A stretch of DNA of 64,000 nt from Amycolatopsis japonica (lineage in GTDB: Bacteria; Actinomycetota; Actinomycetes; Mycobacteriales; Pseudonocardiaceae). The stretch is taken from positions 5,332,001 to 5,396,000 of the forward strand of contig NZ_CP008953.1 of the NCBI RefSeq assembly GCF_000732925.1. The letters are read 5' to 3'. Positions 3,083 to 60,577 of the stretch are shown piece after piece (within the stretch, counting starts at the first letter, position 1; each line of letters opens with the position of its first letter). The translations under genes were made by a program, and so were the position numbers. The notes under the pieces were generated by a model. It ran no database searches. It worked only from the letters and a program-made list of their open reading frames with translations, and had not been told where the DNA came from.

Positions 3083-3137
3083 GCGCGTGAAGGCCCCCTT
3101 CCCTCGGCTGAACCGAGGGAAGGGGGCCTTCACGCGC
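3083..3137. repeat. Family-A palindrome A1 (likely terminator of pgl)
   Basis: Perfect 25-bp inverted repeat (3083-3107 pairs with 3113-3137) with a 5-nt CTGAA loop. The invariant GAAGGCC/CCTT core sits between a GCGCGT basal stem and a CCCTCGG/CCGAGGG apical stem. There is no T tract, so if it terminates transcription it is a U-less hairpin of the kind proposed for actinobacteria. Confidence 0.85.
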
Positions 3138-3162
3138 ATCCGGCCAACGTGACCCAAGGCGC

Positions 3163-3258
3163 AACTCGCGTGATCAGAGACGTAACTCGCGTGTCTGGAG
3201 GCGCCACACGCGAGTTACGTCTCCAGACACGCGAGTTACGTCTTGGATCACGCGAGTC
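3163..3258. repeat. Family-D array of 21-bp repeats in inverted arrangement
   Basis: The 10-mer AACTCGCGTG occurs at 3163 and 3184. Its reverse complement occurs at 3207 and 3228, with a one-base variant at 3249. Spacing within each arm is exactly 21 bp, and the two arms face each other across about 3200. A 21-bp period is two helical turns, so all copies in an arm would face the same side of the DNA. A related array lies at 60435-60503. Confidence 0.8.
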
Positions 3259-3315
3259 ACGGGCCTGATCACGACCCATCAGGCGGCCGCGGCGGTGACA
3301 CTCTCATGGCGGAAG

Positions 3316-3368
3316 TCCGTGAAGGCCTCCTTCCCTACCCTGAAGGTAGTGAAGGAGGCCTTCACGGA
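3316..3368. repeat. Family-A palindrome A2
   Basis: 24-bp stem (3316-3339 with 3345-3368) with one mismatch and a CTGAA loop. The core is GTGAAGGCCTCCTT, the basal stem TCCG/CGGA and the apical stem CCCTACC/GGTAG. It closely resembles copy A8 at 60527-60577. Confidence 0.85.
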
Positions 3369-3470
3369 ACTCGCGCGGCAGGGTCACCGCGCGAGCACGA
3401 AACGTGACATAGATCAACTTCCCCGGACTTCGGCATCAGGGAGGACTTGTTCGCGCGTCGAAATGATCAG

Positions 3471-3574
3471 CGGACCACCGAGCCCGGGTGGTCCGGTGTG
3501 GATTCGACCGACCGAACGTTCATGCACTTGTCCGCAGAACGGACAGTGACCGCCCAGTCGCTAGCCCGACTGGG
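3471..3574 (+). promoter_or_regulatory. Cluster of three short hairpins upstream of the sensor kinase
   Basis: Three inverted repeats follow one another: CGGACCACC (3471-3479) with GGTGGTCCG (3487-3495), TGTCCG (3529-3534) with CGGACA (3540-3545), and CCCAGTCG (3553-3560) with CGACTGGG (3567-3574). They lie 125-230 bp before the kinase ATG, a plausible promoter or leader position. Function is unknown. Confidence 0.4.
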
Positions 3575-3699
3575 GGAAACTTACCGCCCTTGTACATCCA
3601 CCCGTTAGCATCCGCACATTTGTTCGTTCCTGCGCGTCCCGATCGGGCGAAGAACACGTCTCACCATCCAAGTCCACAAGACGAGTGAGGTCGCCAGCG

Positions 3700-4902
3700 A
3701 TGAGCACAGAGGGTCTCTCGATGCCAGGTATCTCGGTGGGCGGCTCCGGAGCGGACGCCGCCGACCGGATGCGCCGTGCCGCCGGGGTCATGTCGTTCGC
3801 CAAGATCAAACGTCCGGCGCTGGTCGCGCTGGGCATCGACACGCTCGCGATCTTCCTGGCCGCGCTCGACGTCTGGCTGGTGATCCCCGAGAAGGCCCAG
3901 CCGTACTCGATCTACCTGTCCGGCGCCGCGTGCCTCGGTCTCGCCTTCCGGCGCAAGCTGCCGTTCCTCGCGGTGATCGTCACCGTCCCCGGCTTCCTGG
4001 CGGGGTGGTCGCAGCTGGCCGCGATGATCGCACTCGGCTTCCTCGCCACCCGCAAACAGATGCACTGGCAGACGTGGACCGGGTTCGCGCTCGTCTTCAC
4101 CTGCCGGTTCGTACAGTGGCCGCTGGCCGACTTCGTCGAGCTCAGCTGGCGCGAACACGTCCTGGACGGCATCTACGGTGTCATCGTCGCCGGGATGCCG
4201 GTGGCCATCGGCCTGCTCATCGGAGCGCGGACCGAGATCTCGCAGAAGCTCTCCGAACTCGCCGCCAGCCGCGACCGTGAACGCCGCTTCCACGCCGACG
4301 CCGTCCGCGCGGAGGAGCGCGCCCGCCTCGCGCGGGAGATGCACGACGTCGTCTCGCACCAGATCACGCTGATCGCGATGCAGGCCGGCGCGCTGCAGGC
4401 GCAGACCACCGACGCCCGGTCGCTCGAAACCGCGCAGGTCATCCGGAAGCTGAGCACCAAGACCCTCGAAGAGCTGCGCTCACTCGTGAGCGTGCTCCGC
4501 TCGGGCTCCGAGGACGACGGGCCCCGGCCGGGCATCAACGAACTCGACCGGCTGATCCGCGGTTCGGACGTCCCGGTGCACCTCACCGTGGAGCGGATCC
4601 CCGACCTGCTGCCCAGCCAGGTTTCGGCGGCGGCCTATCGGACCGTGCAGGAATGCCTGACCAACGTGCACAAGCACGCACCGGGCGCCACCGCGACCAT
4701 CCGGATCCAGGGCGAGCACGGTTCGCTCAAGGTCGAAATACGCAACGAGCGCGCTCGGACTCCCGGTGCGGCCCTGCCCTCGGGAGGGCACGGGCTGACC
4801 GGGCTGGCCGAACGCGCTCGACTGCTGGGTGGGAGTTTCGAAACCGCCGATACCGAGGACGGCGGGTTCCGGGTGCGTGCCCGGTACCCGCTCGACCGGT
4901 GA
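3700..4902 (+). CDS. Orphan NarL-type sensor histidine kinase
   Basis: A 400-aa membrane histidine kinase. The N-terminal half (about residues 40-165) holds five or six hydrophobic segments. A HisKA_3 dimerisation/phosphoacceptor helix follows with LAREMHDVVSHQ (His215), then a HATPase_c domain with the N-box QECLTNVHKHA and G-box GHGLTGLAERARLLGG. The ATG at 3700 is preferred because GTGAGG lies 9 nt upstream; a GTG at 3685 is the in-frame alternative. No response regulator is adjacent: the next gene (rbpA) is convergent and starts its 3' end 7 bp away. The partner regulator must therefore be encoded elsewhere. The stimulus is not visible from the sequence. Confidence 0.85.
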   Translation: MSTEGLSMPGISVGGSGADAADRMRRAAGVMSFAKIKRPALVALGIDTLAIFLAALDVWLVIPEKAQPYSIYLSGAACLGLAFRRKLPFLAVIVTVPGFLAGWSQLAAMIALGFLATRKQMHWQTWTGFALVFTCRFVQWPLADFVELSWREHVLDGIYGVIVAGMPVAIGLLIGARTEISQKLSELAASRDRERRFHADAVRAEERARLAREMHDVVSHQITLIAMQAGALQAQTTDARSLETAQVIRKLSTKTLEELRSLVSVLRSGSEDDGPRPGINELDRLIRGSDVPVHLTVERIPDLLPSQVSAAAYRTVQECLTNVHKHAPGATATIRIQGEHGSLKVEIRNERARTPGAALPSGGHGLTGLAERARLLGGSFETADTEDGGFRVRARYPLDR

Positions 4903-4909
4903 GCGGCTG

Positions 4910-5251
4910 CTAGATCTCCCGGCGCTGGCGCAACCGCTCCAGCGCCTCGGCGAGGATGGCCTCGCCGTCGGCGTCGGAACGCCGTTCCTTCACGTACGCG
5001 AGGTGAGTCTTGTAAGGCTCGGTCCGCGGCGCGGCAGGAGGGTTCTTCTCGTCCTGCCCACCGGGGAGCCCGCAACGCGGGCAGTCCCACTCGTCGGGAA
5101 TCTCGGCGTCCATCGAGAACGAGGGCTGTGCCTCGTGCCCGTTGGCGCACCAGTAGGAAATACGGCGCCGCGGCGCCGACTCACCCCGCTCCGATTCGCC
5201 CGAAGGCCCGGCACCCACACGGGTGCCCCGAATCGCGTTACCGCCAACCAT
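4910..5251 (-). CDS. rbpA: RNA polymerase-binding protein RbpA
   Basis: RbpA is an actinobacteria-specific RNA polymerase subunit-like activator that binds group 1/2 sigma factors and stabilises the open complex. The 113-aa product has the family length. It carries the zinc-ribbon-like cysteines in YWCANGHE and CPRCGLPGG, and the C-terminal sigma-interaction region TEPYKTHLAYVKERRS with DGEAILAEALERLR. It is transcribed alone on the minus strand next to secG. I did not find a confident sigma-R-type promoter in the 65-bp upstream gap. Confidence 0.96.
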   Translation of the reverse strand: MVGGNAIRGTRVGAGPSGESERGESAPRRRISYWCANGHEAQPSFSMDAEIPDEWDCPRCGLPGGQDEKNPPAAPRTEPYKTHLAYVKERRSDADGEAILAEALERLRQRREI

Positions 5252-5316
5252 GAATCCTCACACCTATAGGGATCGGCGGCGCGCCCCCCATAGGCACGCC
5301 GAAACACCTGGATCGA

Positions 5317-5547
5317 TCAGACCTTGAGCAGGAGCCCGAGGCCGATGATGCTGATCAGCCACACCGCGCCCAGCAGCAGCGTGATCCGGTCGAGGTTCTT
5401 CTCGGCCACGCTCGAGCCGGAGAGGCTCGACTGCATACCGCCACCGAACAGCGAAGACAGACCGCCACCACGGCCGCGGTGCAGCAACACGGCGACCACC
5501 AGCAGCACGCTGGAGGCGATCAACAGGATTTGCAGGAACAGCTTCAT
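5317..5547 (-). CDS. secG: Preprotein translocase subunit SecG
   Basis: SecG is the small accessory subunit of the SecYEG protein-export channel. The 76-aa product has two transmembrane helices (about residues 3-22 and 55-75) flanking the family's cytoplasmic loop GRGGGLSSLFGGGMQ. It lies downstream of tpiA, the usual actinobacterial gap-pgk-tpiA-secG order, separated by 140 bp that contain a hairpin (5581-5622). The ATG at 5547 fits the family N terminus. Confidence 0.95.
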   Translation of the reverse strand: MKLFLQILLIASSVLLVVAVLLHRGRGGGLSSLFGGGMQSSLSGSSVAEKNLDRITLLLGAVWLISIIGLGLLLKV

Positions 5548-5580
5548 GTCATCCTCTGCGCTCTTGGAGAATGCAGGAAA

Positions 5581-5622
5581 ACGGTGTGCCACCAGCGGCT
5601 CTTGACCGCCAGAACACACCGT
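5581..5622 (-). terminator. Hairpin between tpiA and secG
   Basis: ACGGTGTG (5581-5588) pairs with CACACCGT (5615-5622), and a nested GCGG/CCGC pair lies in the loop. It sits after the tpiA stop and before secG on the minus strand, so it could end or attenuate the glycolytic transcript before secG. Confidence 0.45.
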
Positions 5623-5687
5623 ACTCCTGGACTCGTCCACTGCTGTGTGACGGACCGGATACCCAGGTTACCCGGTAGGTGCCCCGA

Positions 5688-6473
5688 TCAGGGCAGGGGC
5701 CCGCCCGCGGCGAGTGCGCAGAGTTTGGTGAACTCGTCACCATCCAGGCTGGCACCACCGACGAGCGCACCATCGATGTTCTCGCAGGCGACGAGGTCAC
5801 TGATGTTGTTGGCCTTGGCCGAGCCGCCGTAGAGCACGCGGACCGAGGACGCGACCTCGGCACCGTAATTCTCGGCCAGGGTGGCGCGGATGGCTCCGCA
5901 CACCTCCTCGGCGTCCTGCGGGGTCGCGACCTTGCCGGTCCCGATCGCCCAGACCGGCTCGTAGGCGACGACGACGTCCTTGACCTGCTCGGCCTTGAGC
6001 CCCTTGAGGCCCTCGACCAGCTGGGTCGTGGTGTGGGCGATGTGCTCCCCGGCCTCGCGGACCTCGAGCTTCTCCCCCACGCACAGGATCGGCGTGATGC
6101 CGTGCTTGAGCGCGGCCTTGACCTTCTTGTTCACCAGTTCGTCGGACTCGCCGTGGTACTCACGCCGCTCCGAGTGCCCGACGGTGACGAAGCTGCAGCC
6201 CAGCTTCGCCAGCATCGGGCCCGACACGTCACCGGTGTAGGCACCGGAGTCGTGCGGCGACAGGTCCTGGGCGCCGTAGGTGAGCGACAGCTTGTCGCCG
6301 TCGGTCAGCGTCTGGACGCTGCGGATGTCGGTGAACGGCGGCAGGACCGCGACGTCGACCTTCGCGTAGTACTTCTCCGGCAGGGCGAAGGCGATCTTCT
6401 GAACCAGCGCGATGGCTTCGAGGTGGTTCTGGTTCATCTTCCAGTTGCCGGCGATGAGCGGTTTGCGCGCCAC
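5688..6473 (-). CDS. tpiA: Triosephosphate isomerase
   Basis: Interconverts dihydroxyacetone phosphate and glyceraldehyde 3-phosphate in glycolysis. The 261-aa TIM-barrel protein shows the N-terminal GNWKMN catalytic Lys, the catalytic His in VGHSERR, the active-site Glu in [14 protein letters not shown], and the phosphate-binding [11 protein letters not shown]. The GTG start overlaps the pgk TAG stop by one base, so pgk and tpiA are tightly coupled. Confidence 0.98.
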
Positions 6474-7687
6474 TAGTCGTTCTCTCCCAGCACAGCGACT
6501 CCGGGCAGTTCCTTGCCCTCCAGGTACTCCAGCGACGCGCCGCCGCCGGTCGAGATGTGCGAGAAGCCGTCCTCCGGCAGGCCGAGCTGCCGCACGGCCG
6601 CGGCGGAGTCGCCACCGCCGACCACGGTGAAGGCATCGCTCTTCACCAGCGCTTCGGCCACGGCACGGGTGCCGCCGGCGAAGGACTCGAACTCGAACAC
6701 GCCCATCGGGCCGTTCCAGAACACGGTCGCCGCGTCGGCCAGCTTGCCCGCGAACAGCTCACGCGACTTCGGGCCGATGTCGAGACCCATGCGGCCGGCC
6801 GGGATGGCCGTCGCGTCGACGACGTCGAACTCCGCGTCGGCCGCGAAACCCGTCGCGGCGAGGACGTCCACCGGCAGGATCAGCTCGACGCCGCGCTTCT
6901 CCGCCTCGGCGAGGAAGCCGCGGACCTGGTCCAGCTGGTCCTCCTGCAGCAGCGAGTTCCCGACCTCGTGGCCCTGGGCCTTGAGGAAGGTGTACGCCAT
7001 GCCGCCGCCGATGAGCAGCCTGTCGACCTTGGTCAGCAGGTTGGCGATGACGCCCAGCTTGTCCGACACCTTCGCGCCGCCGAGGACGACGACGTACGGC
7101 CGCGCGAGGTCCTCGGTCAGCTTCTTGAGGACGTCCACCTCAGCCAGCACGAGGCCGCCCGCGTACGCCGGAAGCGCCCGCGCGATCTCGTAGACCGAGG
7201 CCTGCTTGCGGTGCACGACACCGAAACCGTCGGAGACGAACGCGCCGCCGGGGACGAGCGCGGCCAGCTCGGCGGCCAGCTCCTGCCGCTCGGCCTCGAC
7301 CTTGCTGGTCTCGCGCGCGTCGAAACGCACGTTCTCCAGCAGGGCCACCTGGCCGTCGTGCAGGCCGGCGACGGTGGCCTTGGCGGACTCGCCGACCAGG
7401 TCACCCGCCAGCGGGACGTCGACGCCGAGCAGCTCGGTGAGCTTCGCGGCGACGGGCGCGAGCGAGAACTTCGGGTCCGGCTCGCCCTTCGGACGGCCGA
7501 GGTGCGCCGTGACGACCACCTTCGCGCCCGCCTCGGCGAGCCGCTTGAGGGTCGGCAGGGCCGCGCGGACGCGGCCGTCGTCGGTGATCTTGTCCCCGTC
7601 GAGCGGGACGTTCAGGTCGGAACGCACGAGCACGTACCGGCCTGAGACGTCCTCGCCCAGCAGGTCTTCGAGGTTCTTCAGTGCCAT
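6473..7687 (-). CDS. pgk: Phosphoglycerate kinase
   Basis: Transfers phosphate from 1,3-bisphosphoglycerate to ADP, the first ATP-yielding step of lower glycolysis. The 404-aa product is full length. It contains the signature [11 protein letters not shown], the [15 protein letters not shown] substrate loop, the hinge region [15 protein letters not shown], and the nucleotide-binding [13 protein letters not shown] near the C terminus. Only 3 bp separate it from gap upstream, and it overlaps tpiA downstream, consistent with one gap-pgk-tpiA message. Confidence 0.98.
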
Positions 7688-7690
7688 GGC

Positions 7691-8761
<1,071 letters not shown>

Positions 8762-16132: not shown

Positions 16133-16187
16133 GTACATGAAGGCTCCCTTCCTTGCGCCTAGGTACAGGAAGGGGGCCTTCATGTAC
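16133..16187. repeat. Family-A palindrome A3 at a convergent gene junction
   Basis: 21-bp stem (16133-16153 with 16167-16187) with one G-U wobble. The basal stem is GTACAT/ATGTAC around the GAAGGC core, and the loop region TTGCGCCTAGGTAC is shared with copy A7 at 60322-60376. It separates the AraC gene (+) from the small minus-strand gene, suiting a bidirectional terminator. Confidence 0.85.
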
Positions 16188-24923: not shown

Positions 24924-24941
24924 CCCCTTCCCCCCTCTCTC

Positions 24942-25003
24942 GCATTTAGTCCTCTGGATGCGGTCCTTGCACACGCAAGTACCGCATCCAGAGGACTAAA
25001 TGC
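24942..25003. repeat. Family-B palindrome B1
   Basis: Perfect 23-bp stem (24942-24964 with 24981-25003) built on TTTAGTCCTCTGGATGCGGT. Inside the loop a second stem CTTGC/GCAAG (24966-24970, 24975-24979) closes an ACAC tetraloop. It lies directly downstream of the PPOX gene. Other copies are at 37467 and 58016, with a half copy at 44678. Confidence 0.85.
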
Positions 25004-25084
25004 ATTCAAGGGGGTGACTCTCCGTGTTGATGTTGGTCAAGTATTGACACGAAGCACCCACTGGTGTGTGATCTGAACCATAGA

Positions 25085-25099
25085 TAGGAAAGTTTCCTA
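25085..25099 (+). promoter_or_regulatory. Palindromic operator candidate upstream of the secreted sugar dehydrogenase
   Basis: TAGGAAAGTTTCCTA is a perfect 7-1-7 palindrome about 85 bp before the start of the dehydrogenase gene, in a local AT-rich patch. Symmetry, position and base composition fit a repressor or activator site, for example for a sugar-responsive regulator. The binding protein is not identifiable here. Confidence 0.55.
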
Positions 25100-25183
25100 A
25101 CTAAAACTCCACCTTCCCCGCCGGGCCCCGCCCGGTCCGCCGTTGTACCTCCCGACCCCCGAACTTCACGTATGGAGGCTCCA

Positions 25184-27742
25184 GTGGCACCCCGACCACC
25201 GTGGCGCGCGCTGCTCACGTGTGCCGCCGCGACGGCGATGACCGTCGCCGTCCTGCCGGCTACGCCCGCCGGCGCGGCACCGACCGATCACGAGTCCGAA
25301 GCCGCCACGATCTCCCAAGGCGCCGTCGAAAAGAACCACGCGGGCTTCTCCGGCACCGGGTTCGTGAACTTCGACAACGTCGTCGGCAGCTATGTCGAGT
25401 ACACGGTGAACGCCGCGCAGGCCGGAACCCAGACGCTGACCTTCCGCTACGCCAACGGAACCACGATCGACCGGCCGGTTTCCCTCAGCGTCAACGGCAC
25501 CGCGGCCGGGACGCTGTCGTTCCCCGGCACCGGCGCGTGGACCACCTGGAAGACCGTCACGAAGGACGTCGCACTGGCGGCCGGGGCCAACAAGATCCGC
25601 ACCACCGCCACCACCGCGAACGGCGGCCCCAACGCGGACAAGCTCACCGCGAGCGGAGTGACCGACGCCGAAGCGCCGACGCCGCCGAAGAACCTGGCCG
25701 CCAAGGACATCAAGGCCCGCAGTGCCACGTTCACCTGGGAAGCCGCGACCGACAACGTCGGCGTGGTCCGCTACGACGTCATGCGCGGCGGCAACGTCCT
25801 CAAGTCCGTCGACGGGAACACGCTCACCACGACCGTCGACAACCTGCAGCCGAACACGGCCTACGACATCTCGGTCGGCGCCTTCGACGCGGCCGGGAAC
25901 CCTTCGCAGCAAAGCAATGTCGTCCAGTTCACCACGCCGTCCAGCGGGGACACCACACCCCCGACGGTGCCGGGGAACCTGCGCTCGACGTCGGTGACCG
26001 CGAACAGCGTTTCCTTGGCGTGGAACGCTTCCACGGACGACAGCGGCACCATCGCCGGTTACGACGTGTACCAGGGCACCACGAAGGTCGCGACGACGCC
26101 GTCCCTCGAAGCCACGGTCACCGGCCTGACGGCGAACACGTCGTACACGTTCACGGTGAAGGCCCGTGACCTCGACGGCAACGCTTCGGCCGCGAGCAAC
26201 GCGCTGACCGCGAAGACGAGCGGCGCCGCGGGCGGCGGGATTCCCGAGTACGACAAGGACATCACGAAGGCGGACCTCGCCTGGTCCGTCGACTTCCTGC
26301 CGGACGGCACGGCGCTGGCGACCGAACGGGACCGGTTCGAGATCCTGCGGATCACGCCGTCGGGCGAGAAGACGACGGTCGGCAAGGTCCCCGGCGCGGT
26401 CGGCACCAACGGCGAGGGCGGCCTGCTCGGTATCGCGATCTCGCCGAACTACGCGGCCGATCACGCGATCTACCTGTACCACACCGCGTCCGGCGACAAC
26501 CGGATCGTGAAGATGACCTACGACAACGGAAAGCTGTCTTCGTCGTCGACGCCGGTGCTCACCGGGATCGCCAAGAACCGTTACCACAACGGCGGAAGGC
26601 TGCGGTTCGGCCCGGACGGCAAGCTCTACGCCACCGTCGGCGACGGGCAGAACAAGGACACCGCGCAGAACAAGGGCTCGCTCAACGGGAAGATCCTGCG
26701 GGTCGACCCCGACGGTTCCGCGCCGAGTGACAATCCGTTCTTCTCCACCGGTGGCAACGCCCGCTACGTCTGGAGCTTCGGGCACCGCAACCCGCAGGGC
26801 CTGGCCTGGGATTCGCGTGGTCAGCTGTGGGCTTCGGAGTTCGGCGACGGCAAGCTCGACGAGCTCAACCTGATCCAGAAGGGCGGCAACTTCGGCTGGC
26901 CCCAGTGCGAAGGCACCGAAGGATCCTGCGGCGGCACGGTCGCGCCGAAGAAGACGTGGCCGACCAGTTCCGGCGGGCCGAGCGGGATCGAGATCGTCAA
27001 CGACTGGATCTACGTCGCGGCGGTCACCAGCGCGCAGCTCTTCGCCACGCAGATCAACGCGGCGGGCAACGGCGTCGGTCCGGTGCAGTCGCTGTTCTCC
27101 GGCCGCTGGGGCAGGCTCCGCTCGGTCACCAAGACACCGGACGGCGGGCTGTGGGTCACCTCGACCAACGCGGACAAGAACGGCGGCACACCGAGCGTGA
27201 TCGACAACGTGGTGGTGCGGCTGAAGTTCCCCGGCGGCTCGCAGCCGGGGGCGTTCAAGCTGACCAGTTCCGCGTTCGCCGACAACGCGTCCATCCCGGA
27301 CAAGTTCACCTGCGCCGGTGACGGCACCGCGGGGCAGGACACCTCGCCGCCGCTGGCGTGGAGCGCCGGGACCACGGGCGCCAAGGGGTACGCGATCGTC
27401 TTCGCCGACGTGGCCAACAACGGCAACAAACTGCACTGGGCGATCTGGGACATCCCGGCGTCGGCGGCTTCGCTGCCGGAAGGACTGGGCTCAGGCTTCA
27501 CGGTCCCGAACCAGAACGGCGCCAAGCAGAAGGCCATGGGCAGCGGGGCGAACTCGCAGAAGTACTTCGGCCCCTGCCCCGGCGGCTCCAGCCATCCCTA
27601 CACGTTCACGCTCTACGCGCTGAAGTCGGCGACGGTGCCGGGCTTGTCCTCGTCCTCGACGATGGCGCAGATCGAAACGGCCATCAAGAACGCTTCGACG
27701 GCCAACGTCAAGCTACGCGGCAAATCCAGCGCCGCGTCCTGA
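25184..27742 (+). CDS. Secreted PQQ/sorbosone-type sugar dehydrogenase with CBM35, FN3 and PEBP domains
   Basis: An 852-aa secreted protein. Residues 1-31 are a signal peptide; about 32-160 a CBM35/CBM6-like module (VEYTVNAAQAGTQTLTFRYA, NGTAAGTLSF). Two fibronectin type III repeats follow (about 165-250 and 255-345). Residues about 350-690 form a six-bladed propeller of the soluble glucose/sorbosone dehydrogenase family (GEGGLLGIAISPNYA, NGGRLRFGPDGKLYATVGD, GHRNPQGLAWD). Residues about 695-852 are a PEBP/YbhB-like domain (SPPLAWSAGTTGAKGYAIV, HPYTFTLYAL). The carbohydrate-binding and FN3 parts suggest oxidation of sugars on a polymer. Start GTG 25184 has GGAGG 5 nt upstream; ATG 25172 is in frame but without one. 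PQQ dependence is inferred from the fold. Confidence 0.88.
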   Translation: MAPRPPWRALLTCAAATAMTVAVLPATPAGAAPTDHESEAATISQGAVEKNHAGFSGTGFVNFDNVVGSYVEYTVNAAQAGTQTLTFRYANGTTIDRPVSLSVNGTAAGTLSFPGTGAWTTWKTVTKDVALAAGANKIRTTATTANGGPNADKLTASGVTDAEAPTPPKNLAAKDIKARSATFTWEAATDNVGVVRYDVMRGGNVLKSVDGNTLTTTVDNLQPNTAYDISVGAFDAAGNPSQQSNVVQFTTPSSGDTTPPTVPGNLRSTSVTANSVSLAWNASTDDSGTIAGYDVYQGTTKVATTPSLEATVTGLTANTSYTFTVKARDLDGNASAASNALTAKTSGAAGGGIPEYDKDITKADLAWSVDFLPDGTALATERDRFEILRITPSGEKTTVGKVPGAVGTNGEGGLLGIAISPNYAADHAIYLYHTASGDNRIVKMTYDNGKLSSSSTPVLTGIAKNRYHNGGRLRFGPDGKLYATVGDGQNKDTAQNKGSLNGKILRVDPDGSAPSDNPFFSTGGNARYVWSFGHRNPQGLAWDSRGQLWASEFGDGKLDELNLIQKGGNFGWPQCEGTEGSCGGTVAPKKTWPTSSGGPSGIEIVNDWIYVAAVTSAQLFATQINAAGNGVGPVQSLFSGRWGRLRSVTKTPDGGLWVTSTNADKNGGTPSVIDNVVVRLKFPGGSQPGAFKLTSSAFADNASIPDKFTCAGDGTAGQDTSPPLAWSAGTTGAKGYAIVFADVANNGNKLHWAIWDIPASAASLPEGLGSGFTVPNQNGAKQKAMGSGANSQKYFGPCPGGSSHPYTFTLYALKSATVPGLSSSSTMAQIETAIKNASTANVKLRGKSSAAS

Positions 27743-27803
27743 GCACGGCCGGGGTGTCCGGAGCGGCGCCGGGCACCCCGACCGTATCCAGTGTGACTGG
27801 AGG

Positions 27804-27844
27804 AACGCCACCCCGTCCGGGATTTCCCGGCGGGGTGGCGTTTT
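27804..27844 (+). terminator. Intrinsic terminator of the sugar dehydrogenase gene
   Basis: AACGCCACCCCG (27804-27815) pairs with CGGGGTGGCGTT (27831-27842), with an inner CCGGGA/TCCCGG stem, and the right arm runs into a TTTT tract. This is the classical rho-independent layout, unlike the palindrome families nearby. Confidence 0.75.
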
Positions 27845-27918
27845 CGTGCGGCCGGCAGGCTTCGGCGCCCGCATGCGGCTTCACCAGGGCACTCGGGACA
27901 CCGTCGGCGGTCCGGCGC

Positions 27919-27975
27919 GTGTCGCGAAAGCCACTTTCGCGACGTGTGATGTCCCGAAAGTGGCTTTCGCGACAC
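27919..27975. repeat. Palindrome E between convergent genes
   Basis: Perfect 21-bp stem GTGTCGCGAAAGCCACTTTCG (27919-27939) with its complement at 27955-27975 and a 15-nt loop. It lies between the dehydrogenase gene (+) and the TetR gene (-), a bidirectional terminator position. Only one copy is present in this window. Confidence 0.75.
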
Positions 27976-28024
27976 GACCGCACCCGGATCAACGTCCCTT
28001 GTGGACAGTCGAGACCGCGATCGT

Positions 28025-36525: not shown

Positions 36526-37475
36526 AGGCCACCGCCGCCACCATCGCGGCCGTGCAGTGGCGGGACGGCGGGATCCCCTGGGAGCCCGGCGGGCACCTCG
36601 ATCCGTGGAATCACCTCGAAGCCGCGATGGGACTGGACGTCGCCGGGCTGGGGTCCGAGGCCGAAGCCGCGTACGAATGGCTGCTCCGCAACCAGCGCCC
36701 TGACGGATCCTGGGCGGCCCGGTACCGCGACGGCCGCGTCGACTTGTCCACTATGGACACGAACTTCACCGCGTACGTCGCGGTCGGGACCAGGCACCAC
36801 TTCCTGCGGACCGGGGATCACGCCTGGCTGGACCGGATGTGGCCGGTCGTGGACAAGGCCGTCGACGCCGTCCTGCGGCGGCAGCAGCCGTCGGGCGCCA
36901 TCTCCTGGCGCGACGGTCCCGAGGTCCGGCTGGTCGCGGGCTGCGCCAGCATCCACCACGCGCTGACGCAGGCGCTGGCGATCGCCTCCGTGCGGGGGCT
37001 GGACCGTCCACAATGGCGAGTCGCGGCGCACCGGCTGCGTACCGCCCTGCTCGGCGAGCCGGGGCTGTTCGCCGCGAAACCGCACGCGATGGATTGGTAC
37101 TACCCGGTTCTGGGCTCCGTCGTCACCGGCGCCGACGCGGCGGAGCGGCTGGCGGCGGGCTGGGACCGGTTCGTCGAGCCCGGGCTCGGGGTGCGGTGCG
37201 TGCACCACGAGCCGTGGGCCACCGGCGGCGAGACGGCCGAACTGGCGCTCACCCTCGCCACTCGCGGTGACCGTGCCCGCGCGACTGAACTCCTCGCGTG
37301 CCTCGCCCGGCTACGCCACGATGACGGCTCGTACTGGACCGGCTATCAGTTCGCGGACGAGGAATTCTGGCCGGACGAACGCACCACGTGGACCTCGGGC
37401 GCGGTCCTTCTGGCGACCGCCGCCCTCGACGGCGACCCGGCCACCTGCGACGTCTTCGGCGAACACCGCGTTTAG
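36522..37475 (+). CDS. Prenyltransferase/squalene-cyclase-like alpha-barrel protein
   Basis: A 317-aa helical-barrel protein with terpenoid-cyclase/prenyltransferase-like repeats (YEWLLRNQRPDGSWAARYRDG, RQQPSGAISWRDGPEV, CLARLRHDDGSYWTGYQF). It also resembles six-hairpin glycosidase folds. No DxDD or catalytic zinc site is seen, so prenyl or cyclase activity should not be assumed. The GTG start overlaps the methyltransferase stop. Glycosyltransferase, methyltransferase and this protein form a coupled trio. The stop codon lies inside family-B palindrome B2. Confidence 0.7.
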   Translation: MKATAATIAAVQWRDGGIPWEPGGHLDPWNHLEAAMGLDVAGLGSEAEAAYEWLLRNQRPDGSWAARYRDGRVDLSTMDTNFTAYVAVGTRHHFLRTGDHAWLDRMWPVVDKAVDAVLRRQQPSGAISWRDGPEVRLVAGCASIHHALTQALAIASVRGLDRPQWRVAAHRLRTALLGEPGLFAAKPHAMDWYYPVLGSVVTGADAAERLAAGWDRFVEPGLGVRCVHHEPWATGGETAELALTLATRGDRARATELLACLARLRHDDGSYWTGYQFADEEFWPDERTTWTSGAVLLATAALDGDPATCDVFGEHRV

Positions 37476-37530
37476 TCCTCTGGATGCGGTCCTTGCACAC
37501 GCAATTACCGCATTCAGAGGACTAAACGCG
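37467..37530. repeat. Family-B palindrome B2, overlapping a stop codon
   Basis: 24-bp stem (37467-37490 with 37507-37530) with one G-U wobble and an inner loop CCTTGCACACGCAATT. It begins inside the last codons of the prenyltransferase-like gene, so its TAG lies in the left arm. It ends 6 bp before the convergent whiA stop. Confidence 0.85.
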
Positions 37531-37536
37531 GGTGGG

Positions 37537-44232: not shown

Positions 44233-44255
44233 ACGCGCGTTTTCGGGTGCCGGAT

Positions 44256-44308
44256 GTCATGAAAGGGTCGTTCAGGACGTTTTTCGTCCCGAACGACCCT
44301 TTCATGAC
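44256..44308. repeat. Palindrome F, first element after xth
   Basis: 24-bp stem GTCATGAAAGGGTCGTTC... (44256-44279 with 44285-44308), one mismatch, with a T-rich loop of five bases. It starts 23 nt after the xth stop and could be its terminator. Single copy in this window. Confidence 0.75.
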
Positions 44309-44348
44309 ACTTGAGTGAGCCCGGCGAACGCCGCCTGCCCCGGATGCC

Positions 44349-44395
44349 AGGAACGGTCCTTTCCTGGCAAATTTTGCCAGGAAAGGACCGTTCCT
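44349..44395. repeat. Family-C palindrome C1
   Basis: About 22-bp stem AGGAACGGTCCTTTCCTGGC (from 44349) with its complement ending at 44395, around an AAATTTT apex. The GAACGGTCCTTTCCTT-type arm recurs at 54629 and 60218, always with an AAATTT apex. Confidence 0.85.
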
Positions 44396-44436
44396 AGCAC
44401 CTGAAGGAGCCGGAGAGCGGCGTCAGCCTCCCTTGG

Positions 44437-44501
44437 CCCAAGTCCGTGAAGGCCTCCTTGAGGGACTCTGGGTCCCTCAAGGAGGCCTTCACGGACTTGG
44501 G
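44437..44501. repeat. Family-A palindrome A4 (30-bp perfect stem)
   Basis: The longest perfect stem in the window: 44437-44466 pairs with 44472-44501 around a TCTGG loop. Core GTGAAGGCCTCCTT; apical stem GAGGGAC/GTCCCTC; basal stem CCCAAGTCC/GGACTTGGG. Confidence 0.88.
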
Positions 44502-44548
44502 AGGCGCCACATGCGCCCCACCTGCACCAGCAGTCACAGCGGCCGCGC

Positions 44549-44596
44549 GTGAAGGGGCCCTTCCCTCGGCTCAGCCGAGGAAAGGAGTCCTTCACA
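44549..44596. repeat. Family-A palindrome A5 (degenerate)
   Basis: GTGAAGGGGCCCTTCCCTCGGC (from 44549) pairs imperfectly with the arm ending at 44596; four mismatches lie in the middle while both stem ends pair. It looks like a decaying copy of the A1 type. Confidence 0.75.
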
Positions 44597-44603
44597 CCTT
44601 CCC

Positions 44604-44662
44604 AAGTACATGAAGGCCCCCTTCCTTGCGCTAGACGCAAGGAAGGGGGCCTTCACGTACTT
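44604..44662. repeat. Family-A palindrome A6
   Basis: 27-bp stem (44604-44630 with 44636-44662) with one mismatch and loop CTAGA. Apical stem CCTTGCG/CGCAAGG; basal stem AAGTAC/GTACTT. Confidence 0.85.
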
Positions 44663-44677
44663 GCCACACCTAAGGAT

Positions 44678-44700
44678 CGCATTCAGAGGACGAAACGCGG
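44678..44700. repeat. Half copy of family B (B3)
   Basis: CGCATTCAGAGGACGAAACG matches the right arm of B4 (58057-58075) but has no left arm here. It is a solitary half-element next to A6. Confidence 0.7.
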
Positions 44701-50458: not shown

Positions 50459-50467
50459 GCGGCATGG

Positions 50468-54628: not shown

Positions 54629-54681
54629 GCTAGGAACGGTCCTTTCCTTGCGAAATTTGCAAGGAAAGGACCGTTCCTAGC
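54629..54681. repeat. Family-C palindrome C2
   Basis: Perfect 23-bp stem GCTAGGAACGGTCCTTTCCTTGC (54629-54651) with its complement at 54659-54681 and loop GAAATTT. It lies downstream of ggt and upstream of fmt, both on the minus strand. A further imperfect hairpin (about 54682-54711) separates it from the ggt stop. Confidence 0.85.
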
Positions 54682-56629: not shown

Positions 56630-58009
56630 ATGAAGACTCCCGGCAGGCGGTGGGGCGCCTTCCTCCCGCTGCTCATCGCACTTCCCGTCCTCGCTGTCCC
56701 CGGTGTCGCGCAGGCAGAAGGCGCGAGCGCCTGCTTCGACGACTCCGCCGCGATCACCGTCGAGGAGAAGCGGCTCACCGCGACCATGCCTTCGGGTGGT
56801 CCGGCGGTCGGCCCGGAACTCGTCCGGCTCGCCGGATTCGACAAGCTCGTCTCCGACTTCACGGCGCGCCTCTGCGCCACGAAGACCGCTTTGCGGGCCG
56901 AGAAGCTCGCCGAGACCGCCGGTGAGGGGCTCTGGCGCACCGCGGTCGACCGCGCGCAGGGCCGCCGTCCGGATCTCGGCAGCATCGACAAGGCCGACGA
57001 CCGGCCGCTCTACTGGGCCCGCCTCCAGATGAGCAAGGCGTTGCGGCAGTGGACGCCGCGTTTCCCGCTGTCCGCGCCCGCCCGGGCGGAGCTGCTGAAG
57101 ACGTTCGACTTCGGCGCGCGGGGACTCGACGATTCCCGCTTCCCCGCCGGTCCGAAGCTGCGGCGGGTGCTGGTGAGCGGGTTCGATCCGTTCACCCTCA
57201 ACGGCGCGGGCGTCCGCATCGCGAACCCGTCGGGCGCGGCGGCGCTGCATCTCGACGGCAAGACCATCCAGACGCCGACCGGGCCCGCGCTGGTGCAGGC
57301 CGTGTCGTTCCCGGTGGTGTGGCGCTACTTCGACGCCGGAATCGTCGAGGCCGCCTACGGCCAGGCGTTCAAGGACCGGTTCCGCCGTCCGGAGCTGATC
57401 ATGACGATCAGTCAGGGTCGTCCCGGCCGCTTTGACATCGAGCGGTGGGCCGGCGCGTGGCGCGGCGGTTCGCCGGACAACCTCGACGAGCCCGTCCGCG
57501 GCCAGGTCCCGCCCGCCGACGGCTGGCCGCAGCCGGACGTCCAGTTCATCGAAACCACGCTGCCGTACGAAAAGATGCTCGCCGCGCCCGCCGGGGCGTA
57601 TCAGGTGCTGTACAACGAGGCGTTCTGCGTCTGGCCGGACAGCACGAAACCGGGGACGGGGACCGCGGTGTGCCGGACGGACGCGCCGAAGCCCGGTGAG
57701 GTCGCCGCTTCCGGTGGCGGCGGCAACTACCTGAGCAACGAGTCCATGTATCGCAGCAACCGGCTCCGGACGGGCCTCGGTCTGACCGGGATCGCGGGCG
57801 GGCACCTGCACACCCCCGTCCTCGGCACGCCCACCGATCCTTCGGCCCTGACCGACGCCGATTTCGAGGCGCGGCGGGCGGCGATCTCATCGCAGATCGT
57901 CACGCTGCTCACCGCCGCTCTGGGCGGCTCCGCCACGAAGGCCGCTTCGCCCGCTCCGGGCGCCTCGGCCCGCGCCGACGTCCTCGCGACCCCCGGCACG
58001 ACCCTCTGA
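56630..58009 (+). CDS. Secreted pyroglutamyl-peptidase (C15)-like protein with Cys-to-Ser change
   Basis: A 459-aa exported protein. Residues 1-29 are a signal peptide and about 30-175 a unique helical segment. From about 178 it resembles pyrrolidone-carboxylate peptidase: RRVLVSGFDPFTLN (family VLVTGFxPF), IANPSGAAALHLDG, MTISQGRPGRFDIERW with a candidate Glu271, and GGHLHTPVLG with His392/394. In the nucleophile position (family Y-V-C-N) the sequence is NYLSN, so Ser369 replaces Cys. The protein is longer than the 200-aa cytoplasmic enzymes. It may be a non-canonical peptidase or a binding protein. ATG 56621 is an alternative start. B4 follows the stop. Confidence 0.6.
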   Translation: MKTPGRRWGAFLPLLIALPVLAVPGVAQAEGASACFDDSAAITVEEKRLTATMPSGGPAVGPELVRLAGFDKLVSDFTARLCATKTALRAEKLAETAGEGLWRTAVDRAQGRRPDLGSIDKADDRPLYWARLQMSKALRQWTPRFPLSAPARAELLKTFDFGARGLDDSRFPAGPKLRRVLVSGFDPFTLNGAGVRIANPSGAAALHLDGKTIQTPTGPALVQAVSFPVVWRYFDAGIVEAAYGQAFKDRFRRPELIMTISQGRPGRFDIERWAGAWRGGSPDNLDEPVRGQVPPADGWPQPDVQFIETTLPYEKMLAAPAGAYQVLYNEAFCVWPDSTKPGTGTAVCRTDAPKPGEVAASGGGGNYLSNESMYRSNRLRTGLGLTGIAGGHLHTPVLGTPTDPSALTDADFEARRAAISSQIVTLLTAALGGSATKAASPAPGASARADVLATPGTTL

Positions 58010-58015
58010 CCCCAC

Positions 58016-58077
58016 GCATTTCGTCCTCTGGATGCGATGGTTCGCTGTCGAACTACCGCATTCAGAGGACGAAACGC
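58016..58077. repeat. Family-B palindrome B4
   Basis: TTTCGTCCTCTGGATGCG (58019-58036) pairs with 58057-58074 with one G-U wobble; inside, GTTCG/CGAAC (58040-58044, 58049-58053) closes a CTGT tetraloop. The inner stem differs from B1 (CTTGC/GCAAG) on both sides, so pairing is kept while sequence changes. It lies at a convergent junction 8 bp before the priA stop. Confidence 0.85.
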
Positions 58078-58084
58078 GGGGGCG

Positions 58085-60175
58085 TTAGATGAGTTCCAGC
58101 GGGTCCAGCTGGATCCGGATGGGCTCGGACGCCTTGCGCGCGTCCCGGCGCGCGGCCGCGGCGTGGACGGCGGCGGCGAGCGCCTTCCCGTCCGGACGCG
58201 CGACGCGCACCAGGGCCCGCTCCCGTTCGGCGTTGCCGTCCTCGTCGACCTCGCCGAGCGGCACCGGGCCCAGCACCTCGCCGCTCTCCGGGAGGGCGAG
58301 GTCGTCGAGCAGTCCGGCGACCGCGTCCGGCGTGCCTTCGATACTCGCCATCCGCATCGCGGGCGGGAAACCGAGTTCGCGCCGCTCGGCCAGTTCGAGG
58401 CTCGCGTGCCAGCCCGGGTCCCAGCGCACCAGCGCCTGCACCACGGAAAGGCCCGCTTCCGCGCCGACGAACACGCGACCGCCTTCGGTTCCCGGCCGCA
58501 CCAGGGCCGCCGCCGCCATCCAGCGCCGCAGGGTCTCCTCCCCCGCGCGCAGGTCCTGCCGCCCCAGCAGCGCCCAGCCGTCCAGCAGCAGCGCCGCGCC
58601 GTAACCGCCTTCCGCGACCGGCTCGGCGCCCGGCGTGCACACGACCAGCGCCGGTTTTCCGGGCACCGAAGCCAAAACCTCCGTCGCGCCCGAGGTCCGC
58701 ACGGGGAATCCGGAGAACGCGCGGCCCAGTTCCTCCGCGGTGCGCTTCGACCCGACGACGACCGCCCGCAGCCGCACCGAACCGCATGCGGCGCAATGGA
58801 AGTTCGTCTCGGGGACGCCGCACCACCGGCAGGCCGGCGGCCTCGGCGCGCCGTCGATCAGCCCGCCCGGCAAGGAAAGCGGGCCGGCGCACCGACGGCA
58901 GTGCGCTGACGTCCGGCAGTTGCCGCACGCGAGCCCCGGGACGTACCCGCGACGTGGAACCTGCACCAGCACGGGGAATCCGCCCGCCAGCGACTGCCGC
59001 GCCGCCTCGAAGGCGACCGACGGGAGCCGCGCGGCCTTGGCCGCTTCGTCCCGCGCGACGTCGAAGTCCTCGCCGACCGGCGTGACCCTCGGCGCCGCCG
59101 CCCGAAGTTCCGGCCGGGCGGCCACGAGAGGCTGCGCCCAGCCAGATTCCACCAGGAACTGCGCTTCGGCGGTGCGCGCGAAACCGGCGACGAGCATGGA
59201 GCCCTTCGCGGCGTGCGCGCGGTCCATCAGCACGTCACGGACGTGTGGATACGGCGCGTGCTGGTCGAGGTGGACGTCGTCGCCGTCGTCCCACACCACG
59301 AACAGGCCGGGATCGGCGACCGGCGCGAACATCGCCGCGCGCGTGCCGACGACGACGCGCACCGCGCCGCGCAGCACCGCGAGCCAACGGCGATACCGCT
59401 CGGCGGGGCCGAGCCCCGCGATCAACGCGACCACGGAATCGGCGCCCAGCAAGGAAACGCACGCGTCGTGCAGCCGGGTCAGGTCACGATGGTCGGGTAC
59501 GACCATGACCACACCCCGGCCCGCGGAAGCCGCGACGGCGGCCGCTTCGGCGAGGCGACGCGGCCAGTCCTCCCCCGGCAGCGCCTGCCAGACCGCGTTG
59601 GCCGGACGCCGTTCCGCGACGGCCTCCAGGAACGCCGGACCGCTCTGGTACTTCTCCCAGGCGGTGGTTTCGGGCGGCTCCGGCGTCGGCGCGGGTTCGG
59701 CGGGCGGTTCACCCTCGGCCTTCGCGTGCCGGGACGGGATCGCGAGCCGCAGGACGTCGCTGAGTGTGCCGCCGTAGCGGTCCGCGACGGACCGGCAGAG
59801 CGTGAGCAGCGCCGGGGGCAGCACGGGCTCGCTGGAGGTCACCCTGTCGATGTAGGCGAGCTTCCCGGTGAACTCCGTGGTGTCGGCGCGCTCGACCAGG
59901 TACCCGTCGACGAGCTGACCCGCGAACCGGACCCGCACCCGGCAGCCGGGGACGGCGGTTTCGTGCAGTTTCTCGGGGATCCGGTAGTCGAAGGTGCGGT
60001 CGAGATGGGTGAGCGGGATGTCCACGACGATCCGCGCGACCGGGTTCTCGGGCGCGGGGTTCTGCGCCCCGCGACGGCTGGCCGTTTTCGCGCGCGACGG
60101 CTTGGCCTTCCGCGCCGGCTCGGCCTTCGGCTCCGGAAGGTCCCACAGAGGGGTCGGTTCGGGACTGCTGCTCAC
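58085..60175 (-). CDS. priA: PriA-like primosomal protein N', helicase-degenerate
   Basis: PriA recognises stalled forks and restarts replication. The 696-aa product keeps the N-terminal DNA-binding domain (ARIVVDIPLTHLDRTFDY, GCRVRVRFAGQLVDGYLVE) and the zinc-binding cysteines (CGNCRTSAHCRRC, CRWCGVPETNFHCAACG). The helicase core is eroded: the place of the GxTGSGKT Walker A reads ALPGEDW, and the DEEH box reads WDDGDD. Loss of helicase motifs is known for actinobacterial PriA. GTG 60175 starts at MSSSPEPTPLW; the longer upstream reading runs through the 21-bp repeats and is rejected. Confidence 0.92.
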   Translation of the reverse strand: MSSSPEPTPLWDLPEPKAEPARKAKPSRAKTASRRGAQNPAPENPVARIVVDIPLTHLDRTFDYRIPEKLHETAVPGCRVRVRFAGQLVDGYLVERADTTEFTGKLAYIDRVTSSEPVLPPALLTLCRSVADRYGGTLSDVLRLAIPSRHAKAEGEPPAEPAPTPEPPETTAWEKYQSGPAFLEAVAERRPANAVWQALPGEDWPRRLAEAAAVAASAGRGVVMVVPDHRDLTRLHDACVSLLGADSVVALIAGLGPAERYRRWLAVLRGAVRVVVGTRAAMFAPVADPGLFVVWDDGDDVHLDQHAPYPHVRDVLMDRAHAAKGSMLVAGFARTAEAQFLVESGWAQPLVAARPELRAAAPRVTPVGEDFDVARDEAAKAARLPSVAFEAARQSLAGGFPVLVQVPRRGYVPGLACGNCRTSAHCRRCAGPLSLPGGLIDGAPRPPACRWCGVPETNFHCAACGSVRLRAVVVGSKRTAEELGRAFSGFPVRTSGATEVLASVPGKPALVVCTPGAEPVAEGGYGAALLLDGWALLGRQDLRAGEETLRRWMAAAALVRPGTEGGRVFVGAEAGLSVVQALVRWDPGWHASLELAERRELGFPPAMRMASIEGTPDAVAGLLDDLALPESGEVLGPVPLGEVDEDGNAERERALVRVARPDGKALAAAVHAAAARRDARKASEPIRIQLDPLELI

Positions 60176-60217
60176 CCGGTGATCTCTACCAGACACTGTC
60201 GCCAGTGCCCGCCACCG

Positions 60218-60276
60218 CGTGCAATGAACGGTCCGTTGCTTGCGAAATTTGCAAGGAAAGGACCTTTCATTGCACG
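60218..60276. repeat. Family-C palindrome C3
   Basis: 26-bp stem (60218-60243 with 60251-60276), three mismatches, loop GAAATTT as in C2. The base CGTGCAATGAA/TTCATTGCACG pairs apart from the internal mismatches, although it differs from the base of C1 and C2. Confidence 0.8.
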
Positions 60277-60321
60277 GCTGCTGGAGCCATCTCGCGGTGG
60301 AGTGCTGTGAAGGCCTCCCGA

Positions 60322-60376
60322 GTACATGAAGGCCCCCTTCCTTGCGCCTAGGTACAGGAAGGACCCCTTCATGTAC
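60322..60376. repeat. Family-A palindrome A7
   Basis: GTACATGAAGGCCCCCTTCCT (60322-60342) pairs with the arm 60356-60376 with three mismatches. The apex TTGCGCCTAGGTAC is identical to that of A3 at 16133-16187, although the two loci are 44 kb apart. Confidence 0.8.
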
Positions 60377-60434
60377 CTCCGGCAAGCAGCGACGCGCCAG
60401 CACCACGCAGGCCGGGGTCTCAACCTGGCAGCCT

Positions 60435-60503
60435 CGCGTGATCGAACGGACGACACGCGTGATCCGGCGGACGACACGCGTGACTGGATGGACGACACAC
60501 GCG
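60435..60503. repeat. Family-D tandem 21-bp repeats
   Basis: Three 21-bp units start at 60435, 60456 and 60477, each CGCGTGAtc/ct followed by a variable stretch and GGACGACA, then a final CACGCG. Period and the CGCGTGATC...GACG layout match the array at 3163-3258. Confidence 0.8.
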
Positions 60504-60526
60504 CAACCAGGCTCCGACCCCAAACG

Positions 60527-60577
60527 CCGTGAAGGCCTCCTTCCCTACCCTCAAGGTAGGCAAGGAGGCCTTCACGG
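60527..60577. repeat. Family-A palindrome A8
   Basis: 23-bp stem (60527-60549 with 60555-60577) with one mismatch, loop CTCAA. Core CCGTGAAGGCCTCCTT with apical CCCTACC/GGTAG; near-identical to A2. It begins 20 bp beyond the metK stop on the minus strand and probably ends that transcript. Confidence 0.85.

Follow-up and report, generated by a model that had tools for sequence, protein, structure and literature searches.

On balance, the palindromes of this Amycolatopsis sequence are probably mobile, REP-like repeats that serve as two-way hairpins without a U-tract at gene ends. They would form a clade-specific community of non-autonomous palindromic repeats, in which copies multiply, land almost solely behind stop codons and disappear by deletion. 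Through such deletion and settling of copies, a given gene end would come to bear a palindrome of another subfamily or family while the genes themselves diverge by a few per cent. The symmetric hairpin would most likely act as a two-way transcript end lacking a U-tract, or as a 3′-end protector, for both flanking genes. REP-like palindromes are already known; set apart here, judged from sequence, are the use of the same gene-end sites by several unrelated families and fast exchange between close species, in a genus where no REP transposase was found.

Palindrome Families and Subfamilies

The window, that is the whole stretch of DNA analysed, covers 64,000 nt of Amycolatopsis japonica (GCF_000732925.1, NZ_CP008953.1 positions 5,332,001-5,396,000, forward strand; host genome 9.05 Mb), and palindromes within it are given without strand. 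All eight family A palindromes located by an earlier note are present, the 44604 copy being placed at 44603. Family A consists of two 12-nt core arms flanking a 19-nt apex within a subfamily-specific basal stem. It measures 43 nt core to core, and the conserved unit of about 59 nt (AAGT...ACTT) is the palindrome itself, conservation ending at the palindrome boundaries. In turn, the arms have the form of small inverted repeats (GAAGG...CCTTC, CGAAAG...CTTTCG). The core had been called invariant, which holds for both arms of five copies (3083, 3316, 44437, 44603, 60527) but not for the other three, which depart in the left arm (16133), the right arm (60322) or both arms (44549). The apical stems had been described as matching complements; this is fully so in three copies (3083, 44437, 44603), while the other five carry one mismatched pair (3316, 44549, 60527) or four (16133, 60322).

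Within each subfamily a particular basal stem goes with a particular core variant and apex. The eight copies belong to five such linked subfamilies and do not count as eight separate events. CGG is represented at 3083..3137, fully paired and 6 nt past a stop codon, and at 44549..44595, a degraded copy with three core mismatches and one apical mismatch. ACC lies at 3316..3368 and 60527..60577, GGA at 44437..44501 (fully paired) and GCG at 44603..44663. The chimeric CHI was found in a convergent gap at 16133..16187, with one core mismatch, and at 60322..60376, with three; in both, the left apical arm CCTTGCG stands opposite the right arm GTACAGG.

The exact core-N5-40-core pattern was matched 247 times in the own genome versus 0 times for a reversed control pattern, and 24 of 80 Amycolatopsis genomes had at least 43 copies of the core-to-core pattern. 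Strong hairpins numbered 130 in 864 kb of own sequence and 1 in 264 kb of Markov-resampled sequence. The repetition is far beyond chance. Of 42 own copies, 28 depart from the reference of their subfamily at three or fewer of 55 positions and are thus recent. Among 150 strong hairpins from 1.2 Mb of own sequence, 114 fall into eight clusters, and family A is one among several palindrome families and one of the commonest. In 19 near-clade genomes with at least 74 A sites, the rank correlation of family copy numbers was 0.54 for A and D (p 0.016), 0.14 for A and E and -0.24 for D and E, values by which a common rate of spread for the three families was rejected.

Three A palindromes make up a composite of about 220 nt at 44443-44663, with the GCG copy as its third member. 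Its sequence, spacers included, recurs at several dozen places among those listed in relatives and partly at four other places in the stretches of own sequence analysed, which is the palindrome clustering with recurring spacers typical of BIMEs. The repeated unit would be the palindrome, and some units may move as such composites. The same convergent gap holds a family C palindrome (44255..44309) and a family B palindrome (44345..44399); a solo right arm of family E follows behind the composite (44672..44699), and the corresponding gap of G117 contains a whole E (G091, G107, G128 and similar labels denote relatives' genomes). Family B also occurs at 60218..60276, and a family D palindrome at 27918..27976 adjoins a U-tract hairpin.

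Placement at Gene Ends

Genes were called with a home-made caller using codon usage. Enrichment at gene ends, one of the points on which the earlier note could have failed, was strong: among 47 A copies none was coding, 22 were convergent, 23 tandem and 2 divergent, against 7.4, 26.9 and 12.7 expected by gap length for the three gap classes (P 4e-5 for the divergent class). Such an extragenic position near gene 3′ ends is characteristic of REP elements. All hairpins together gave 69 convergent, 67 tandem and 7 divergent (expected 22.4, 81.9 and 38.7); five of the 150 were coding and two, probably lying where a stretch ends, belonged to no gap class. In tandem gaps, the chosen palindrome lay within 20 nt past the upstream stop in 34 of 52 cases, where 11.2 were expected, or 21.2 if the last 60 nt were barred. 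For A alone the count was 13 of 19, with 3.5 or 7.8 expected, respectively.

The hairpin itself was considered as a transcript end. Folded as RNA, the A-type hairpins reach a median energy of -45.0 kcal/mol. The 8 nt after the A stem contained on average 1.33 T (44 copies, both strands), which is near background, and at least 4 T were found in 6% of cases. A U-tract intrinsic terminator was therefore rejected, no T-rich tract following the A stems. U-tract terminators were also rejected as the usual solution, since a crude scan found them in 8 of 173 convergent gaps (one analysis of these convergent pairs omits 12 that overlap by more than 10 nt). As strong, stop-proximal hairpins without a U-tract, the palindromes resemble U-less (I-shaped) terminators in form and placement, and the bidirectional transcript end put forward earlier is compatible with a symmetric hairpin between convergent genes. 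A search of 4227 Rfam families against the window gave 0 matches above the gathering score.

Exchange Between Species

Neither the other palindrome families nor their exchange between species figured in the earlier note. Families were assigned for the gap comparison by best local score against typed reference palindromes, the letter classes used earlier being rougher. In 63 comparisons with an occupied own site, the relative shared the subfamily in 24, had only other subfamilies in 25 and had none in 14. One convergent gap carried E, E, B and F between the stop codons of four species, with closely matching flanks. Exchange series outside the window include E, B and F at a gap 13.6 kb to its left and A subfamilies at a gap 10.8 kb to its left. 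Within the window, the gap with E at 24942..25003 has A in G107 and A, D and E in G128; the convergent gap with E at 37466..37531 has F instead in G128 and G109; the gap with B at 54629..54681 has H in G144 and A in G128; and the convergent gap with E at 58011..58082 is reduced to 9 nt without a palindrome in G107. Single gaps are affected by apparent sequencing-adapter remnants (two gaps in G098) and by runs of N (some gaps in G107). That close species often differ in the palindrome lying behind the same gene suggests mobile, interchangeable gene-end hairpins.

With convergent and tandem sites pooled, a site was occupied in at least three of four species 18 times, versus 1.8 if independent, a figure inflated by shared descent. 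For convergent sites alone, joint occupancy was 10 versus 7.0 (shuffle maximum 11), not clearly above independence. At the 44-kb gap, eight of ten distant Amycolatopsis genomes with both anchors have 0-62 nt and no visible palindrome, so that this gene pair can do without one. The figure for convergent sites and the 44-kb gene pair both speak against the reading as mobile gene-end hairpins.

A bolder proposal, which we offer tentatively and consider rather doubtful, would treat gene ends as sockets. A machine that is neither Y1 nor dependent on IS110 would plug in interchangeable full palindromes of several unrelated families, with existing hairpins as preferred landing places; the site would retain a two-way hairpin, yet the sequence of that hairpin would be exchanged in full over a few per cent of divergence between the genes.

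Co-variation and Core Conservation

Subfamily linkage and co-variation were analysed in 251 A copies, for which the 19-nt apex was required. Many of these loci were fetched via the exact core, so the set is unfit for testing core conservation, which was scored on a separate set in which the core was not required. The earlier note saw pairing kept through changes on both sides. Within subfamilies this was strong in one, modest in two and absent in two, and most differences lie between linked subfamilies. Both-side changes numbered 51 in GCG (shuffle mean 10.5, maximum 19), 10 in CGG (2.9, 8), seven of them at one core position, and 5 in GGA (0.7, 4), all above shuffles. No excess was found in ACC (15; 14.4, 23) or CHI (3; 1.1, 4). 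When own-genome copies were taken alone, the shuffle maximum was exceeded only by GCG (10 versus 7). Hairpin-templated correction, in which one arm is copied from the other, could mimic co-variation without selection. The absence of within-subfamily co-variation in ACC and the broken apex retained by CHI count against useful gene-end hairpins.

A core-specific binder, also proposed earlier, found no favour, since departures from the subfamily reference are about equally frequent in core and apex (0.049 versus 0.056); the values for loop and basal stem were 0.062 and 0.123.

Search for a Mover

The search for a RAYT/TnpA-REP gene advised earlier gave no PF01797 match in 80 Amycolatopsis genomes and none in the own genome, the control being positive in 5 of 14 genomes. 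In the 10 nt beyond the palindrome, a GTAG/CTAC tag was seen in 13 of 251 copies and 13 of 250 control flanks, and a CGTC/GACG tag in 40 of 251 and 53 of 250. Identical flanks of 3-8 nt at offsets 4-11, as a target-site duplication would leave, were no commoner in the 251 copies than in control flanks. The lack of a target duplication, a mover or an identified parent element in the searches described here weighs against mobile repeats. IS110 transposase was rejected as mover: PF01548 had 0 matches in G091, G158 and G160, which are rich in A sites (276, 229 and 211), so IS110 is not required. Plasmid or phage carriage was likewise rejected, a 241-nt stretch with the composite being unmatched in plasmid and phage collections at 1e-5. 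To look for a parent insertion sequence with palindromic ends, 2.2 Mb were scanned for solo arms of families A-F; this turned up only five long-range pairs, known by their arms alone, of which three were A and two F (345-1151 nt).

Alternative Explanations

The palindromes might instead be neutral or selfish sequences that insert anywhere and survive only in the safe harbour behind stops, with coding and promoter insertions purged and no role in transcription. We regard this as possible, if less than probable. Such purging would leave no coding and few divergent A copies (0 and 2 of 47), and the independent copy-number histories of A, D and E and the distant relatives without a palindrome at the 44-kb gap fit it. 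However, palindromes in tandem gaps lie nearer to the upstream stop than a uniform draw would place them, also with the last 60 nt barred (34/52 versus 21.2; A 13/19 versus 7.8, P ~1e-4), and the same sites are repeatedly occupied by other palindrome families; both points speak against a neutral origin without being decisive.

Another option is sites for protein binding or cruciform formation, with a role in organising the chromosome or in insulating supercoils where genes converge. Positive supercoils meet at convergent genes, and the inverted-repeat arms would provide four half-sites per unit. This option is improbable in our judgement: unrelated families that swap at the same gap are ill-suited to one sequence-specific binder, and the core is not clearly better conserved than the apex. 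Classical REP/REPIN elements moved by a RAYT (TnpA-REP, Y1) transposase appear less probable still. The convergent and stop-proximal preference, as described for REPs elsewhere in PMC3733652, and the BIME-like composites with recurring spacers agree with them, but no PF01797 was found in 80 genomes of the genus, neither tag rises above control, and the units exceed REP size.

Relation to Known Systems

As far as PMC3733652 describes them, REP elements (GTAG and CGTC super-families) and BIMEs are likewise short extragenic palindromes in high copy and in clusters, with alternative complementary-stem subfamilies, and favour convergent and tandem gaps near stops. In contrast, the palindromes here are longer than the 20-40 bp given there, fully palindromic and without an unpaired terminal tag, in a genus where no Y1 transposase was found. 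Moreover, the phyla listed in that source for GTAG and CGTC repeats exclude Actinobacteria, and wholesale replacement by unrelated families at one gap appears to have no counterpart in what it describes. U-less (I-shaped) and bidirectional terminators of GC-rich bacteria share the strong GC-rich gene-end hairpin without U-tract. According to PMC8269248, 353 of 535 highly structured 3′ ends of Streptomyces clavuligerus lack a U-rich tract, and its bidirectional ends have longer stems and less read-through; the long stems are shared by the palindromes here. Ordinary terminators differ in not being multi-copy repeats with subfamilies. Haemophilus uptake-signal hairpins, as outlined in PMC5217627, are also a repeated sequence whose inverted pairs are recruited as gene-end hairpins or terminators, but they derive from a single short uptake motif, unlike the several unrelated long palindromes here. 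A literature search, with most subscription papers outside its reach, found no paper on these palindromes.

Should the hairpins prove to end transcripts, these antibiotic producers would have recruited mobile repeats for most of their strong gene-end hairpins, and natural replacements for weighing terminator sequence against shape would be at hand in the exchange series. The repeats also point to some mechanism that spreads perfect palindromes. MITEs such as Correia or RUP elements are short, non-autonomous and intergenic. The palindromes here differ from them in showing no target duplication above control (251 copies), and resemble them in those three properties; one palindrome may also sit inside another.

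Structure and Subfamilies of the Family A Palindromes

All eight core-bearing palindromes of family A that the earlier note had listed in the window were present. However, the core it called invariant was exact in both arms in only five of the eight. The apical stems, described as matching complements, were fully paired in three copies and had one mismatched pair in three others, whereas four pairs were mismatched in the remaining two (16133 and 60322), which carry a chimeric apex, CCTTGCG opposite GTACAGG. This apex is not peculiar to the window, because 21 of the 251 family A copies assigned from the collected loci were of the chimeric type, 12 of them with exactly this apex. In the A. japonica genome, 247 exact core-to-core sites were found, compared with 0 for the reversed control pattern. 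Allowing as many as two substitutions in each arm gave 47 copies in 1.2 Mb of evenly spaced sequence, a count that extrapolates to roughly 350 copies in the whole genome.

The 251 copies formed discrete subfamilies (GCG 52, CGG 51, ACC 50, GGA 35, CGC2 24, CHI 21, GAC 11, MED 4, and other 3). Basal stem, core Y and apex were linked in the five main subfamilies, indicating that the co-variation of the two stems described earlier is mostly a difference from founder to founder. Within subfamilies, co-variation was retained for GCG, CGG, and GGA, in which both-side changes (51, 10, and 5) exceeded the shuffle maxima (19, 8, and 4; means 10.5, 2.9, and 0.7). It was not retained for ACC, which showed no excess (15 changes; shuffle mean 14.4, maximum 23), or for CHI, in which the maximum was not exceeded (3 changes; mean 1.1, maximum 4). 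When own-genome copies only were used (8 or 9 per subfamily), GCG alone was above the shuffle maximum (10 vs 7). These comparisons indicate that pairing is well kept in GCG and loosely in ACC. Correction of an arm against its partner within a hairpin would yield the same sign of co-variation.

The conserved unit stops at the palindrome ends (AAGT...ACTT in the GCG, GGA, and CHI types), and no flank common to A copies was found beyond them. Neither a GTAG or CGTC tag at the ends nor a target duplication around the copies was in excess over control. Divergence from the subfamily reference was estimated by region for 42 copies from the window and the own-genome sample, with the core not required, and was 0.049 of positions in the core, 0.056 in the apical stem, 0.062 in the loop, and 0.123 in the basal stem. 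The copies are young, since 28 of the 42 had three or fewer differences in 55 positions. A composite of three A palindromes with their spacers (about 44443–44663) occurred at several dozen other places in relatives among the matches listed, and partially at four other places in the own-genome stretches examined. Between two A palindromes of the window, at 3166–3255, lies a nested array (family I) of short direct and inverted ACTCGCGTG-type words; similar arrays recur in relatives.

Placement at Gene Ends

The enrichment at gene ends anticipated by the earlier note was borne out. None of the 47 A copies was coding, and 22 lay in convergent gaps, 23 in tandem gaps, and 2 in divergent gaps, against 7.4, 26.9, and 12.7 expected by gap length (P = 4e-5 for the divergent deficit). 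All strong gap hairpins were distributed similarly (69 convergent, 67 tandem, and 7 divergent vs 22.4, 81.9, and 38.7). In convergent gaps, these hairpins lay a median of 9 nt from a stop. For tandem gaps, a single palindrome was drawn from each gap, and the upstream stop was within 20 nt in 34 of 52, compared with 11.2 expected, or 21.2 with the last 60 nt barred. For family A alone, the corresponding count was 13 of 19, against 3.5 expected, or 7.8 with the last 60 nt barred (P about 1e-4). Sixty of the 161 convergent gaps were under 30 nt and thus have no room for such a palindrome, and 32 of the 41 gaps of 60–120 nt contained one. No T-rich tails were found behind families A to F (means of 0.88–1.68 T per 8 nt).

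Exchange of Palindromes Between Species

Gap lengths were compared across four species (164 kb), a gap being stable when its length range was at most 3 nt. Stable gaps made up 84% of 19 divergent and 76% of 89 tandem gaps but 16% of 19 convergent gaps, 63% of which changed by at least 40 nt. Aligned window pieces of the relatives were 91–98% identical. Where the own site was occupied (63 comparisons), the relative had the same subfamily in 24, other subfamilies only in 25, and no palindrome in 14. The gap 13.6 kb left of the window holds E, E, B, and F in the four species, between flanks that match closely up to both stop codons; that 10.8 kb left of the window holds A in all four, in two differing types, and that 30.8 kb beyond the right end of the window holds E, D, E, and A. 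That unrelated palindromes take each other's place at a fixed gene end would surprise a specialist. Loss also occurs: the E palindrome of 58011–58082 is missing from genome G107, and truncated E remnants lie in another gap in G144 and G128. Palindromes can also nest, one having been found inside another. A lone E right arm (44672–44699) stands behind the A composite, and G117 has a whole E in that gap. When 44655–44680 was compared with G107 (locus L166), the final A copy, at its right end, and the old E apex both contained GTACTTGC in G107; by eye, this would fit a junction of the composite with E at a short common word.

Most likely, the palindromic repeats spread, copies behind stop codons are tolerated or favoured, and these act as symmetric U-less hairpins serving both strands; judged from sequence, neutral survival in a safe harbour is a plausible main rival. 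A palindrome was present in at least three of four species in 18 convergent and tandem gaps pooled (1.8 if independent) and in 8 tandem gaps (0.23), whereas convergent gaps alone gave no clear excess (10 vs 7.0, maximum 11); shared descent adds to these counts. In the convergent gap with the composite, near 44 kb, every one of the 17 near-clade genomes that have both flanking genes carried one or more palindromes, the families (classed by eye) varying. Among ten distant genomes with both genes, eight had 0–62 nt and no palindrome seen by eye, indicating that the gene pair can do without; the others had an F palindrome (G135) and a 461-nt gap (G150).

For the U-less hairpin role, the nearest experimental support, by analogy, is Term-seq of Streptomyces clavuligerus: among 535 highly structured 3′ ends, 353 had no U-rich tract, and bidirectional 3′ ends showed longer stems and lower read-through (PMC8269248). 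The palindromes may resemble U-less terminators. They also work like REP/BIME elements, and REPs in other bacteria have the same placement (PMC3733652). Haemophilus uptake-signal hairpins indicate that repeats can be recruited as terminators (PMC5217627). REP identity itself was not borne out by enzyme (searched with PF01797), tag, or size.

Distribution of Family A and Other Families

In the named genome collection, at least 120 stretches matched family A, and 80 of 80 among the matches listed were titled Amycolatopsis. The core pattern matched in 58 of 390 genomes and 5 of 46 genera of the bacterial family, and in one of 396 genomes of a phylum-wide sample, A. japonica itself. In the genus, 24 of 80 genomes had at least 43 sites and the remainder at most 19; the largest count outside it was 12. 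Beyond the main range, exact core-to-core sites numbered 1, 7, and 12 in three genomes (G333, G334, and G335) of another genus of the family, g33. By identity at the 44-kb locus, the 24 high-copy genomes split into a near group of 19, A. japonica included (aligned pieces 92–98% identical), and a second group (G101, G108, G113, G145, and G150; 82–83% over the better matching piece), which among the matches listed (G101, G108, and G113) mostly had a different apex, ACCGGC...GCCGGT. Runs of N break up palindromes in draft assemblies (G107, gaps matching 3077–3720 and 24924–25237; L062 near 3225), so draft copy numbers are probably underestimates. In the same two gaps of G098 (L208–L210), remnants beside N within palindromes are presumably sequencing adapter. 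Palindromes seem to disrupt short-read assemblies.

An unbiased hairpin scan detected 130 strong hairpins when the window was included (864 kb of own-genome sequence) and 150 in the 1.2-Mb sample, which excludes the window. Eight clusters held 114 of the 150, and 36 were singletons (5 coding). The largest cluster had 69 members (best reference A 28, B 20, C 11, and H 10), followed by D 14, E 10, G 8, and F 6. Visual inspection gave about ten families. These have separate histories. Within the genus, D sites occurred in 20 of 80 genomes (A. japonica 72, G128 226, G126 0) and E sites in 18 of 80 (A. japonica 77, G117 121, G097 0). D ranges beyond the A-rich clade, since G154 and G163 have 31 and 40 exact D sites despite 1 and 0 A sites. 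In G087, without A copies, palindromes with arms CGAATGTGGCTTTCG (L259 9486–9542 and L260 15293–15345) are relatives of D. Hairpin density was 4 per 100 kb in G138, G087, G145, and G098 (100 kb each) vs 12.5 in A. japonica. On direct reading, the arms of several families proved to be small inverted repeats in their own right (GAAGG...CCTTC and CGAAAG...CTTTCG). In five of six species, the convergent gap at 27743–28024 retains a hairpin whose tail is rich in T; in the matching gap of G107 the region of this hairpin differs, and an F-like palindrome adjoins it.
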